Positions 5,519 to 42,163 of a DNA stretch of 42,244 nucleotides are shown here, piece after piece. Numbering within the stretch: the first letter of the stretch is position 1; every line of letters starts with the position of its first letter. The stretch lies in contig JAPLZY010000025.1 in NCBI GenBank assembly GCA_026394775.1, forward strand, positions 1 through 42,244. Direction: 5' to 3'. The stretch comes from Candidatus Zambryskiibacteriota bacterium. Its GTDB lineage: Bacteria > Patescibacteriota > Minisyncoccia > Phycocordibacterales > DATDWN01. A program made the translations under genes and the position numbers. The notes under the pieces were generated by a model that did not search any database, was not told the DNA's origin, and saw nothing but the letters and a program-made list of their open reading frames with translations.

Positions 5519-5718
5519 AAAATCTTGTCTCAGCATAACTTTTCCAGGGCCTTGCACAGTGAATGGCGAGTGAGAAGACGTGTTACGTCTTCGCAAGACC
5601 TTGCCCAGGCTTTTGTACTCAAAGGACTGACAAGGTGTACAGCTCCTGTAAGGAGGTTCGCTAGCCCAACAGGGCTAGATAGGTTGCCCGGGAAAAGTTG
5701 TGGTGAGTAAAAGATTTT
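5519..5718. repeat. terminal-inverted-repeat hairpin element, family 1, containing structured motif copy A
   Basis: AAAATCTTGTCTCAGCATAACTTTTCCAGGGCC...GGTTGCCCGGGAAAAGTTGTGGTGAGTAAAAGATTTT; shares arms with 2851-3009. Confidence 0.8.
5574..5655 (+). other. structured motif copy A
   Basis: GAAGACG-TGTTA-CGTCTTC GCAAGACCTTGCCCAGGCTTTTGTACTCAAAGGACTGACAAGGTGTACAG CTCC-TGTAA-GGAG. Confidence 0.75.
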
Positions 5719-6342: not shown

Positions 6343-9300
6343 ATGTCGCAACATACACAAACGCACGTGAGAAAAGGTCCTCGACCTCAAAAGTTTTTCG
6401 GACGGTTCAAAAAACCGCTTATTGAGACACCAAACTTTGTCGAGCCACAACTCGACTCTTTTAAGTGGTTGGTAGAAGAAGGTCTTAAGGAAGTGTTTAA
6501 AGAATTTTCTTCTATTAAAGACTACTCTGAAAAGAAATTTCAGCTTGATTTTACAGGCTTTGAATTGGCGCTACCTAAGTATGATGAATATCATGCAAAG
6601 GAAAACAAACTTTCGTATGACGCACCATTGAAAGTAAAAGTGAAGCTCAAGAACCATATTATGGGTTCTGAAAAGGAGCAGGAGATTTTCATGGCGGATT
6701 TCCCGCTCATGACTTCTCATGGAACTTTTATTATCTCAGGTATTGAGCGTGTTATCGTGCCTCAGCTTGCACGTTCTTACGGTGTATTCTTTACTGCAAA
6801 CGAAGTGCGAGGACGAAGACTCTTTGGAGCAAAGGTAATCCCAGGACGAGGTGCATGGGTAGAGATCGAATCTGATGCAGACGGAGTGATGTATGTACGT
6901 ATCGACCGAAAGCGAAAGTTTCCTATCGCTACACTTCTTCGTGTACTTGGAGCACCAACAGACAAGGAAATCAACAAACTCTTCGAAGGAGATGAATTTG
7001 CTAAAAACTCTATTATAAAGACAATCGCAAAGGATACTGCAAAGACTATCGAGGATGCATATATTGAAATCCACAAGCGACTTCGAGATGGAGACCTTGC
7101 AACTGCAGAGAATGCAAAGGAATTTGTGGATGCGCTCTTCAACGAAGAGCGATACGACCTTTCACCTGTTGGACGTTTCCGATTTAACCAGAGATTCTCT
7201 AAAAAACTAGACGAAAAAGAAAAAAATCGAAAGACTATCTCTATTGACGATATTGCGACTATCGTCACTCATATTGCCCACCTCAACAACACCCCAAATG
7301 CACAGCCAGATGATATAGACCACCTAGGATCAAGACGAGTACGTTTTGTTGGAGAACTCTTCCAGCAGAAGATCCGTGTTGGTATGGCTCAGATCAAGCG
7401 AAATATCCAAAACAGAATGTCGACTATCGATACTGATGTGACACTTCCTGTACAGTTTATTTCCCCAAAGCCACTCCAGGCTCGTATTAAAGAATTCTTT
7501 ACGACAAACCAGCTCTCACAGTTTATGCTTCAGGAAAACCCATTGGCTGAAGTAGAACACCTCCGAACACTCTCAGCGCTTGGTCCAGGAGGACTCAACC
7601 GTGCACGAGCAGGTTTTGAAGTGCGAGACGTGCACCCTTCTCACTACGGAAGACTCTGTCCGATCCACACACCAGAAGGTCCAAACATCGGTCTCGTTCT
7701 TCGACTTGCAGTGTATGCTCGATTGAACCACTTTGGAATGATTGAAACTCCATATGCAAAAGTAAAAGATGGAAAAATAACAGGAGAAATCGTTCACTTG
7801 AACGCTTCTGAAGAAGAAAACTTTGCTATTGCACATGCTGCAACACGATATGATAAAGACGGAAAGATTATTGATGGCGTAGTAGAAGTACGTATCAACG
7901 GTGAGCCAAGTACAATCGAAAATACAAAGGTGGACTACATGGACGTGGCAACAAACCAAGCATTTTCTATTGCTACAAACATGATTCCGTTTGTAAACAA
8001 TGACGACTCAACTCGAGCGCTCATGGGTTCTAACATGCAGAAACAAGCAACACCATGTGTGGTTGCTGAAGCACCACTCGTGGGAACAGGTATTGAAACT
8101 TCAGCGGTTAAAGATACAGGACGACTTGTACTCGCATCTGAAGAAGGTACTGTCTCATATGTAGACGGAGGTAAAGTGAAAGTAAAAAATTCAAAAGGAA
8201 AAGAAACAGAGTACAAGCTTGTGAAGTTTTCACGAACAAACGGATTTACCGCATTTCACCAGAGACCGTCTGTTGATGTAGGAGATGTTGTGAAAAAAGG
8301 AGCAGTGCTTGCAGATACATCTGCATCAGAACACGGACAAATGGCAATCGGTCAAAACATTTTGATCGCCTTTATGTCATGGAGTGGGTCAAACTACGAA
8401 GACGCGATTATTCTTTCAGAAAAGCTCGTAAAGAAATCTAAATTTACATCGATTCATATTGAAGAGTTTGTGGTCAACGTACGAGATACAAAGCTCGGAC
8501 CAGAAGTTACTACATGCGATATTCCAAACGTGGGAGAAGGTAAACTCAAAAACTTGGCAGAAGACGGTATTGTACGTGTTGGTGCTGAAGTGCGACCAGG
8601 AGATATCTTGGTAGGTAAGATCACACCAAAAGGTGAGACACAGCTAACTCCAGAAGAGCGACTTTTGAGATCTCTCTTTGGTGAAAAAGCTCGTGATGTA
8701 AAAGATACATCAAAACGAATGGAAGGAGGTAAACGAGGTCGCGTAATCAACGTACAGGTATTCTCACGAGAAAAAGGGGACAAACTTGACTCAGGTATTA
8801 TCAAGCGAATCCATATTGAAGTAGCAGAACTTCGAAATGTATCTGTAGGAGACAAACTCGCGGGACGACACGGAAACAAAGGTGTTATTTCTCGAATCCT
8901 TCCTGAAGAAGATATGCCATACATGGCAGATGGAACTCCGATCGACATGATCCTTACACCACTTGGTGTGCCATCACGTATGAACCTCGGACAAATTCTT
9001 GAGTTGCACCTTGGGCTTGCTGCACACACACTCGACTATCAGGCTATCGTACCTCCATTTGCAGGTGCGACAGATACTGAAATTAAAGATGAGCTTGTAA
9101 AAGCAGGTTTCCCGAAAAATGGAAAGATTCCATTGTACGATGGACGAACAGGAGAAAAATTTGAACAAGATATTGCGGTTGGGTATATGTACATCTTGAA
9201 GCTGCACCACATGGTGGAGGACAAGATCCATATGCGATCGATCGGGCCATACTCTCTTATCACACAACAACCACTCGGAGGAAAAGCTCAGAGTGGAGGA

Positions 9301-12500: not shown

Positions 12501-13237
12501 GAAAACCTAAAAACCCAGCGATTGTTTCGACTATCGCAGGTACGGTTTCTGATATCAAGATTTCAAACAAAGAAAAACTTGTCACTATTATTCCTGATCT
12601 TGAATACAAAACAAAGATTAAGGGAGATGTTGAATACAATGTAAGTCTCAACCGAATGATCTTGGTAAAGGTGGGAGATCGAGTAGAAAAAGGAGATATT
12701 ATTACTGACGGTTCTGCTGATATTGATGAGCTCTTCCGATACGCAGGAAAAGACAAGACCGTAAACTATATTATTTCTGAAATCAACAAACCATACGACC
12801 TTCAAGGTGCAGCGGTATCTCGAAAACACATTGAATTGATCGTGCGACAAATGTTTGCACGAAAACGAATCAAGGATGCAGGAGATACGCTCTTTACTCG
12901 AGGTGACTTGGTGGACAATGCATTCCTCTCTGAAGAAAATACACGAATGCGCGCAGACGGAACTACAGAAGCAAAAGCTGACTCAGTGGTTATGGGTATT
13001 TCAGATGTGTCACTTTCACGAAAGAGTTTCCTTGCGGCAGCTTCGTTCCAACACACAACACGTATCTTGATCACAAGCTCTATTAAAGGTACGACAGACA
13101 AGCTCGCTGGTCTTATGGAAAATGTGATTATTGGAAAATTGATCCCTGCAGGTACTGGATTTAAAGGAAGTAGAAAAGCACAGATGATCAAAGATGTGCG
13201 TGAGGTACGAGATGCAGAAAGAGGTGAGCTTGGGTAG
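9572..13237 (+). CDS. rpoC: DNA-directed RNA polymerase subunit beta'
   Basis: NADFDGDQMAVH catalytic motif, zinc motif CYCGKYRGIRYKGIVCEKCGVE. Confidence 0.99.
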   Translation: MKTQPKTNSTNFDMITLRLASPERILEWSFGEITKPETINYRTQRSEKNGLFDEKIFGPDKDYECYCGKYRGIRYKGIVCEKCGVEITRSIVRRERMGHIELATPVSHIWFLKSMPSRIAMILGIPTMDIEKVIYFAGYIVTSVTEEERQRYLKDLDSEYKSKVKSLQDEKTKEAVKEMYLTTKRDIESINEGKVLDEVEYHNFGMKYGTMFEAGIGAEAIFNIFKRLDLSKLLVSLHAEVEKAPALEIGKINKRISTISAMVNSGVRPEWMFMTHIPVIPPALRPMVPLDGGRYATSDVNDLYRRVINRNNRLKKLKEIHAPDVILRNEKRILQEAVDALIDNSIRHGGTSGATSLAQRRALKSIADNLKGKRGIFRQNLLGKRVDYSGRSVIVVGPELNINQCGLPKHMALELFKPFVISQLLKRELAYNIRGASKLIEDGIAEVWAILEEVTKNKYVLLNRAPTLHRLGIQAFQPVLIEGNAIQLHPLVCSAFNADFDGDQMAVHVPLSDEAQAEAREIMAADKNILKPGSGDPTVSAKMLDIVLGVYWMTKEMTGEKGEGMIFQSPNSAITAYDFDAVTFRAKIKVLPTDTPKYAQFEGKIFETTVGKLLFNNVLPKDYPYVNTEMVQKKITALIDDLIERYGIENVPAIIDKMKKFGFKYATHSGVTWGIDDVMIPEGKNAIVEAAQKEIDTMMEHFNDGLISKEERLRKATEVWHKAKDDVGKLIPASVPANGPVSDMVLSGARGSWGNITQMAGMKGLITNTSGETIEFPIKSCMKEGLTPIEYFTTTHGSRKGLTDTALNTAKAGYLTRKLFVVAQDIVVTEEDCGTTEGIVMGEESGAIDLSLAKHIKGRFVAKDVVGTDGKVIFAKDHLLSKKDAQSLETLGIKNVTVRSPLSCKTLDGVCVKCYGTDLGKNKVIEIGEAVGTVAGQAIGEPGTQLTMRTFHSGGTASVGGDITSGLPRVEEIFEKRKPKNPAIVSTIAGTVSDIKISNKEKLVTIIPDLEYKTKIKGDVEYNVSLNRMILVKVGDRVEKGDIITDGSADIDELFRYAGKDKTVNYIISEINKPYDLQGAAVSRKHIELIVRQMFARKRIKDAGDTLFTRGDLVDNAFLSEENTRMRADGTTEAKADSVVMGISDVSLSRKSFLAAASFQHTTRILITSSIKGTTDKLAGLMENVIIGKLIPAGTGFKGSRKAQMIKDVREVRDAERGELG

Positions 13238-13310
13238 GGACCCAAGTGCAAGACCTTGCCTAGGCTTTTGTACTCAAAAGACTGACAAGGTGTACTGCTC
13301 CTGTAAGGAG
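13229..13310 (+). other. structured motif copy B
   Basis: CTTGGG-TAGGGA-CCCAAG hairpin spanning the rpoC stop, then GCAAGACCTTGCCTAGGCTTTTGTACTCAAAAGACTGACAAGGTGTACTG CTCC-TGTAA-GGAG. Confidence 0.75.
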
Positions 13311-13332
13311 TCCAGGGAGAGTAAGGGGTGTT

Positions 13333-41308: not shown

Positions 41309-41448
41309 TTCCGCGGTACTCTGTGGTGGAGTGAGAGCTGATATTATCAGCTCGCAAGACCTTGCCAGAGCTTTTGTAAATTTAGTAATTTCAAAAGATC
41401 GACAAGGTGTACAGTCTCTGTAAGAGAAGCGACTGTTCTGTCGTTTGC
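41309..41448 (+). pseudogene. tRNA-Asn-like 5' half interrupted by structured motif copy C
   Basis: ATTCCGCGGTACTCTGTGGTGGAGTG and AAGCGACTGTTCTGTCGTTTG align to ATTCCGCGGTAGCTCAGTGGTAGAGC and AAGCGACTGTTAATCGCTTGG of the adjacent tRNA-Asn. Confidence 0.55.
41335..41427 (+). other. structured motif copy C
   Basis: GAGCTGA-TATTA-TCAGCTC GCAAGACCTTGCC..CTTTTG..CAAAAG..GACAAGGTGTACAG TCTC-TGTAA-GAGA. Confidence 0.75.
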
Positions 41449-41501: not shown

Positions 41502-41810
41502 TCCGCGGTAGCTCAGTGGTAGAGCAAGCGACTGTAAAATTGCAGCTTCCAAGAGAAATCTTGGTTGACAAATGAGGTGAATTCGGGGAAACCCCACGGT
41601 TGTAAAGACCAGGACAATCCCGAGCCAAGCCTTGAAAGAAATTTCAAGGAAGGTGTAGAGACTATCTCGCAAGAGAGTACTCGGTGTAACAGCCCAGGAA
41701 GCGCCTCACTCCTAAGTCCGAAAGGATATGGAGATGATATAGTCCATGCTTTCAGTAATGAAAGGAGCCATGTAATCGCTTGGTCGTAGGTTCGATCCCT
41801 ACCCGCGGAG
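41502..41810 (+). tRNA. tRNA-Asn(GUU) interrupted by a group I intron
   Basis: Spliced: TCCGCGGTAGCTCAGTGGTAGAGCAAGCGACTGTTAATCGCTTGGTCGTAGGTTCGATCCCTACCCGCGGAG; full cloverleaf, anticodon loop CTGTTAA; CCA not fully encoded. Confidence 0.9.
41536..41772 (+). other. group I intron (tRNA-type, IC3-like), no ORF
   Basis: P1 CUGU/GCAG with U.G at the 5' splice site; terminal G at 41772; GACAATCCCGAGCCAAGC, AAGGTGTAGAGACTAT and GATATAGTCC core segments; P7 GACTAT/ATAGTC. Confidence 0.9.
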
Positions 41811-41854
41811 CAGTAGAAAATCTTAAATCCCCGAAAGGGGATTTTTGATTTTCC

Positions 41855-41995
41855 TGCTCCGCGGGAGAAATCAGATGTTATCTGATTTCGCTAGGGATCG
41901 AAAACCTGTGATAGTTTTTTTGTGAGTTAATACGAAACAAAAAACAGAACAGGTGTACCGTTCATGTAATGAAAGATCACCCTACCCGCGGAGCA
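41855..41995 (+). other. structured motif copy D enclosed by inverted tRNA-Asn 3'-end sequence
   Basis: TGCTCCGCGGG/CCCGCGGAGCA closing arms; GAAATCAGA-TGTTA-TCTGATTTC; ACCTG..GTTTTTTTGT..AACAAAAAAC..CAGGTGTACCG TTCA-TGTAA-TGAA. Confidence 0.7.
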
Positions 41996-42163
41996 AGACA
42001 AACCCCGAAAGGGTTTTATTAACAAAAATAATTTTTGAACTTTTGTATAAAATAGTAGTTGACATACATTTTTATTTGTTCTATTGTGTTGTTTAGGAGG
42101 AAGGGCACCCACAACTCTCAATTCGAATTTAAATACAAACTAATTTCTCCACAGAAGGAAGCG

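Follow-up and report, generated by a model that had tools for sequence, protein, structure and literature searches.

A covarying repeat family of Patescibacteria with arms copied from the adjacent tRNA, a candidate non-autonomous inserting element

We analysed a stretch of 42,244 nucleotides (the window) from contig JAPLZY010000025.1 of a Candidatus Zambryskiibacteriota assembly (GCA_026394775.1), in which a folded motif, copy D (41855-41995), lies downstream of a tRNA-Asn gene. An antisense copy of the 3' end of that tRNA bounds the motif on one side and a sense copy on the other, and related elements with arms matching their own tRNA were found beside many tRNA genes of related genomes. We propose, with a probability of roughly 0.5, that copy D is a member of a structured repeat family of Patescibacteria that acts as a non-autonomous inserting element targeting the T-loops of tRNAs. 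The repeat family is probably mobile.

Results

Copy D is enclosed by copies of the tRNA-Asn 3' end

Repeat analysis of the window bore out the statement of an earlier sequence-only reading that copy D lies between two copies of the tRNA-Asn 3' end, one antisense and one sense. Its right edge, CCCTACCCGCGGAGCA at 41980-41995, had rightly been called a direct copy of the tRNA end, its 16 nt being identical to the intact 3' end at 41797-41812. The two sense copies of the tRNA-Asn 3' end form a direct repeat of 23 nt (87%; repeat family D2), and the inverted pairs I4, I6 and I21 link the antisense segment of D to the sense copies. The antisense copy is split by a hairpin as described earlier, but the hairpin-bearing stretch inside it is 26 nt long (41866-41891) and not 25; it is directly followed by TAGGGATCGAAAACCT at 41892-41907. 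The antisense T-arm of copy D reads GAAAACC instead of GAACC and so has two additional A; the sense copy starts with GATC at 41975, which includes one additional A. With at most one mismatch, CCGCGGAGCA occurred five times in the window versus 0.95 expected, a number reached by no shuffle.

The arms had also been said to pair around the motif, and folding agreed with this: the stretch 41855-41995 folds at -53.8 kcal/mol (z -7.05; 0/200 shuffles equally good), and the antisense and sense tRNA-Asn copies form its closing stem. All features are listed in Table 1.

Table 1 Features of the window at the tRNA-Asn locus and sibling copies of the core.
Feature	Position	Strand	Basis
Intact tRNA-Asn(GUU) gene, group I intron splitting the anticodon loop	41502..41811	+	ARAGORN, introns allowed (L167:1111-1420)
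Terminator-like hairpin between tRNA-Asn and the element	41816..41853	+	Inverted repeat I5, 17-nt arms, 88% complementary
Left arm of P1a: TGCTCCGCGGG, antisense copy of the 3' acceptor strand of tRNA-Asn	41855..41865	+	
P2 hairpin dividing the antisense copy	41867..41889	+	Fold; same position in other D-type loci
Left arm of P1b: antisense copy of the T-loop and the 3' strand of the T-arm of tRNA-Asn	41892..41902	+	Cognate test; I21, 100% over 11 nt
Core helices P3 (ACCTGT/ACAGGT) and P3b	41904..41954	+	Fold; family covariation
Conserved GTAC and P4 hairpin with GTA triloop	41955..41973	+	Fold, family conservation
Right-hand arms of P1b and P1a: sense copy of tRNA-Asn 3' end, G57 of the T-loop to discriminator	41975..41995	+	
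Second terminator-like hairpin, 3' of the sense copy	42000..42020	+	Direct repeat family D5
Motif copy A of the same core family; lies upstream of rpoB-like open reading frame at 6343	5564..5656	+	Model R1; reading-frame identity by eye
Motif copy B, same core family, spanning end of rpoC-like open reading frame, before dnaG-like open reading frame	13218..13311	+	R1; reading-frame identity by eye
Motif copy C within degenerate partial tRNA-Asn copy	41325..41428	+	R1, 94.2 bits; repeat D16

D-type elements follow tRNA genes and match their own tRNA

A covariance model of the D-type element (R2), built from 8 D-like copies, found matches in 44 of 61 genomes (the source genome and 60 relatives) at E<=0.001, with 0 to 36 per genome. 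We used 105 of 117 D-type matches, having dropped 4 duplicates from overlapping loci and 8 low scorers (<=54 bits). A tRNA gene on the same strand lay upstream within 400 nt in 87 and within 150 nt in 77 of these 105 copies. Seven of them are training loci of R2, chosen mostly for lying beside tRNAs; without these, a hand count gave 81/98 and 71/98, respectively. In the relative G038, which provided no training copy, 24 of the 40 Rfam tRNA genes are followed on the same strand by a D-type element, at a distance of 50-86 nt in 23 of the 24, and none has one on the opposite strand. Altogether 31 of the 40 R2 matches in G038 lie downstream of a tRNA on the same strand, where simple arithmetic gives a chance expectation below 1. 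The tRNAs adjoined by D-type copies bear 19 ARAGORN labels, comprising 18 amino-acid identities and one 'tRNA-Stop'. Cognate flanks were found at these 19 labels, so copy D is not a one-off, and the equivalents that the sequence-only reading had proposed to look for beside other tRNA genes do exist in relatives.

The stretch from tRNA to repeat is about 100-180 bp and was gene-free in the 74 D-type loci inspected; tandem D-type copies were present at three loci (L178, L204 and L237). Across 112 distinct copies, 94.6% of cells were paired, all 24 pairs covary and the covariation was 0.645 vs 0.172 after shuffling, in alignments that, for R2 as for the core model R1 below, were fitted to those models and are biased towards their structures. 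Structures displaced by sliding gave pairing of only about 40-56%.

The match of the arms to their own tRNA was assessed in the 75 D-type loci with a readable T-loop, with 1500 non-cognate pairings as controls. The antisense T-arm fitted its own tRNA (>=8/9) in 61/75 loci vs 57/1500 controls and the antisense acceptor in 41/75 vs 51/1500; for the sense copies, the T-arm fitted in 42/75 vs 68/1500 and the acceptor in 41/75 vs 27/1500. Acceptor copies were retained (>=7/8) on both sides in 16 loci, on the antisense side alone in 25, on the sense side alone in 25 and on neither in 9, so what is retained across the D-type family is the T-arm pair and the core. These counts bear on the earlier suggestion that the arms make a tRNA-like acceptor stem, which as a putative substrate of RNase P and RNase Z would belong to a tRNA-like RNA. 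The closing stem of the window copy, with 11 bp of acceptor sequence and GCA at its end, fits such an RNA. As a family feature, however, the acceptor stem did not stand: the 3' strand is used twice, no 5' acceptor strand is present, and both arms are kept in only the 16 loci given above, which makes this explanation very improbable.

The main rival to insertion is a cis-acting RNA in tRNA trailers, whose antisense segment would pair either with the upstream tRNA 3' half (1:2) or with the downstream sense copy (2:3) in the manner of an attenuator, and which could serve as a check on read-through transcription or on the folding or 3' processing of the tRNA. The narrow spacing and single orientation at the 24 tRNA genes of G038, the excess of cognate antisense T-arms and acceptors over non-cognate pairings, the covariation of every pair, and the 25 loci that lost the sense acceptor but kept the antisense one all speak for it. 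The equally numerous loci that lost the antisense acceptor and kept the sense one speak against it, as do the element-free genomes, the tRNA-distant core copies and the element-free tRNA genes described below. A three-segment RNA of this kind accounts for the antisense copy, but not for the latter two observations, and we consider it possible though rather doubtful.

The same core occurs far from tRNA genes

Motifs A, B, C and D of the window have a common core, with the order P2-P3-P3b-GTAC-P4 and a length of roughly 90-110 nt. The core model R1, built from 14 copies, gave 19 matches at E<=1 in the 753-kb source genome, 15 of which had E<=2e-6, and matched in 43/61 genomes at E<=0.01. In 94 copies from relatives, 93.0% of pair cells were paired and 28/28 pairs vary on both sides somewhere, and shuffled alignments came nowhere near the observed pairing. 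For the analyses of core copies, 49 of 57 entries were used in one list (2 duplicates and 6 weak or odd ones dropped) and 91 of 94 in another. No ARAGORN tRNA lay within 300 nt in 102 of 140 core copies, and 38 had one. The core had no Rfam 15 match at the gathering score in the window, in copy A (E<=10) or in the 12 relatives' loci tested.

Copy C is surrounded by a degenerate tRNA-Asn copy, of which the 5' half begins at 41309 and the anticodon-arm copy runs to about 41445. The motif is followed by AAGCGACTGTTCTGTCGTT (41427-41445), which nearly repeats the anticodon arm of tRNA-Asn and places C between the two halves. We rejected the idea that the motif is a fragment of a group I intron, because the likeness of motif C to the intron, AAGGTGTA (repeat D14), goes no further and no Rfam match was found for the core. 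The intron itself, an Rfam RF00028 match at 41526-41765, is in the anticodon loop of the intact tRNA-Asn gene, with exon matches at 41502-41538 and 41773-41811; tRNA-Asn matches are also split in several relatives, for example G001, G012, G030 and G060. A second subtype, GTGAG-hairpin-CGCAAGRCCGGAG...CCGACGGG...GAGG, adjoins the main core in the upstream piece of L016 and in L045.

Flanking repeats point to insertion

The right flank of D-type copies recurs upstream in 55/105 loci, and in none of the controls. Among core copies, the left flank recurs downstream in 21/140 (control 1/140), and inverted arms were found in 30/140 vs 2 in the control at the same score threshold. In the source genome, core copies stand inside partial duplications of tRNA-Pro, tRNA-Ile and 5S rRNA, and in relatives inside duplicated segments of tRNA-Glu and tRNA-Ala, each time with the intact gene adjacent. 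One to three target bases are missing at the insertions into duplicated segments, in cases aligned by eye. Further core copies are located in a terminator hairpin (L128) and, as a pair, in 5S rRNA (L086). In L094 (743-973), a 91-bp insert is flanked by perfect 70-bp repeats across the start of a gene resembling msrA.

Some of these loci have features of their own. The 70-bp repeat of L094 takes in one side of the element's P4 hairpin, its 3' strand. In L047 the element lies between two copies of one N-terminus (LQITFWG by eye), and the DNA differences between them are mainly synonymous. A self-splicing intron was dismissed as an identity of the element, as an intact tRNA, 5S rRNA or gene start adjoins it in the cases read.

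At tRNA genes, the sense copy spans the T-loop to the tRNA end, which is the usual identity block of att sites of tyrosine recombinases. The repeats could accordingly be the residual attL/attR of a tyrosine-recombinase element that has itself shrunk to its ends. Such remnants would not be expected to combine a conserved core with a cognate antisense copy at 19 tRNA labels, and sibling copies in 5S rRNA, terminators and mRNA starts also count against them; we regard this origin as quite improbable.

The elements are patchily distributed in Patescibacteria

With either model, 16 of the 61 genomes have no element and 45 bear one. In a survey of 43 tRNA-Asn loci (42 from relatives and that of the window), 4 end at a contig edge and 1 is ambiguous, which left 38 readable loci: 13 with a D-type element, 24 with none and 1 (L347) with similar tRNA flanks around a different core. 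Within one genus, the element is present at tRNA-Asn in G002 and G008 and absent in G006 and G011. The protein encoded upstream is the same (G002 and G006, 57% over 273 aa). A degenerate D-type copy of tRNA-Asn arms (C29:12844-12866, reverse strand) was also seen on another contig, in L002:1500-1610, a locus in which no tRNA was detected and the AGGTGTAC core is missing.

The exact D-type pattern was found in 38 stretches among named genome contigs. Most of these contigs are titled Patescibacteria or member groups, namely Taylor-, Zambryski-, Kaiser-, Nomura- and Vogelbacteria, Paceibacterota and Parcubacteria; the other titles are some 'bacterium' or 'uncultured bacterium', one Gottesmanbacteria and one Elulimicrobium. 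Bins among these contigs may be mixed.

Discussion

How the elements may have reached their places

In the reading that we prefer, an element arriving at a tRNA gene would be placed at the T-loop. The intact tRNA would stay on its upstream side, and the target's 3' end, starting at the T-loop, would be duplicated beyond it. With the 3' end repeated after the element, the tRNA would remain functional. D-type elements additionally have an antisense copy of their own tRNA end (the T-arm and often the acceptor and trailer), which results in a sense-antisense-sense order and closes the folded element (P1). Other copies of the family stand in the loops of duplicated pieces of tRNAs, 5S rRNA, terminators and mRNA starts. 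An element that inserts at the T-loop and duplicates the tRNA 3' end accounts for the strand, the spacing, the sense copy, the tandem copies and the patchiness.

The antisense copy may have come from fold-back copying of the hairpin of the tRNA trailer or from pairing with the target at insertion, both of which are conjectures. What the data show are the architecture, its recurrence, the cognate match, the covariation, the repeats and the patchiness; movement of the element and the sequence of events are inferred, as is fold-back copying. Fold-back copying on its own gives a further alternative, in which template switching at the tRNA terminator hairpin would leave neutral scars, palindromes of the tRNA end in which the core is only a frequent passenger. 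In several loci (L158, L183 and L186) the trailer hairpin, acceptor and T-arm do form a single near-perfect palindrome, as such scars would. The sequence and structure of the core are nevertheless conserved across families, and a scar should not bear the same covarying core, so we judge a scar unlikely.

Several observations weigh against a family of inserting elements. Insertion alone leaves the cognate antisense copy unexplained, and the strict placement on the same strand together with the cognate antisense sequence look like function. At the threshold used, the majority of the 140 core copies have no flanking repeats, direct or inverted. The four tRNA-Asn copies of family f1 are of one core subtype (4/4 vs 16/40 overall, among the D-type loci fetched), which hints at inheritance in place, so that repeated gain and inheritance coupled with loss are equally possible. 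The exact D-type pattern was absent from the viral contigs searched. Finally, no mobilising gene was found among Y1_Tnp, RVT_1 and IS110, no integrase search having been made. Y1_Tnp is weakly associated with the element (32/45 element-bearing vs 6/16 element-free genomes, p 0.033), and an R1 or R2 match above 20 bits was present at 1 of 20 Y1 loci, the other 19 being without an element. RVT_1 showed no association (22/45 vs 6/16, p 0.56), and an IS110 (DEDD) transposase occurs in 4/61 genomes.

Y1_Tnp is moreover lacking in 13 of the 45 element-bearing genomes, including G026 and G047, which have 15-24 copies per model. REP-associated tyrosine transposases (RAYTs; REP, repetitive extragenic palindromic), reverse transcriptases and IS110 are therefore unsupported as mobilisers, given that Y1 loci are mostly element-free, RVT_1 is unassociated and IS110 is rare. 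One of the two Y1 loci examined for repeats, the RAYT-like L314, has palindromic repeats of its own, CGCGAGGTTCAACCTCGCG.

Function and copying could also be combined. The elements might be a tRNA-companion RNA specific to Patescibacteria, which follows the majority of tRNA genes in some genomes and works as a three-segment switch that senses or controls the folding, read-through or processing of its own tRNA. It would spread between tRNAs by copying, and every new copy would have its guide rewritten. We put this forward as a tentative and less probable idea.

Comparison with known systems

Like the REP/RAYT repeats associated with Y1_Tnp and like miniature inverted-repeat transposable elements, the elements described here are short, structured and dispersed, with many copies per genome and no gene inside. 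They differ from REP/RAYT in being nearly absent from the Y1 loci tested, and we know of no cognate tRNA copies in REPs. IS110 elements with their bridge RNA are comparable in having a structured non-coding end linked to insertion, but IS110 transposases occur in only the four genomes mentioned above. Bacterial tRNA group I introns are represented in the very tRNA-Asn gene of the window, but the motif itself is outside the intact gene and matches no Rfam family at the score used.

The likeness to integrative elements at tRNA 3' ends, bounded by attL/attR, is that the tRNA is left whole and its 3' end from the T-loop is repeated beyond the element; the direct repeat on the distal side by which such elements are recognised, a copy of the tRNA 3' end, was found here. 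Unlike them, the D-type stretch measures about 100-180 bp, is gene-free in the loci inspected, and combines a conserved folded core with an antisense copy of the cognate tRNA in each case. A report on tandem interspaced guide RNA (TIGR) arrays and their tigRNAs, which names Patescibacteria, describes guide-RNA systems of phages and parasitic bacteria in which pairs of short spacers are arrayed in tandem next to Nop-domain genes and give RNAs of 36 nt (PMC12045711). Single dispersed copies with tRNA-derived arms differ from that layout as far as it is described there, and we set aside an identity with TIGR arrays on this account.

No description of this repeat family was found in the literature searched (preprints outside its scope), which also seems to describe no counterpart to an element of this kind, structured and with arms rewritten to fit every tRNA that it stands behind. 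If the family is mobile, bacteria with very small genomes would possess an insertion mechanism whose arms are self-made and matched to the target; action in cis would instead make it a new mode of tRNA gene control. Both readings are open to test, as R1 and R2 locate the copies and pairs of loci with and without the element exist within one genus.
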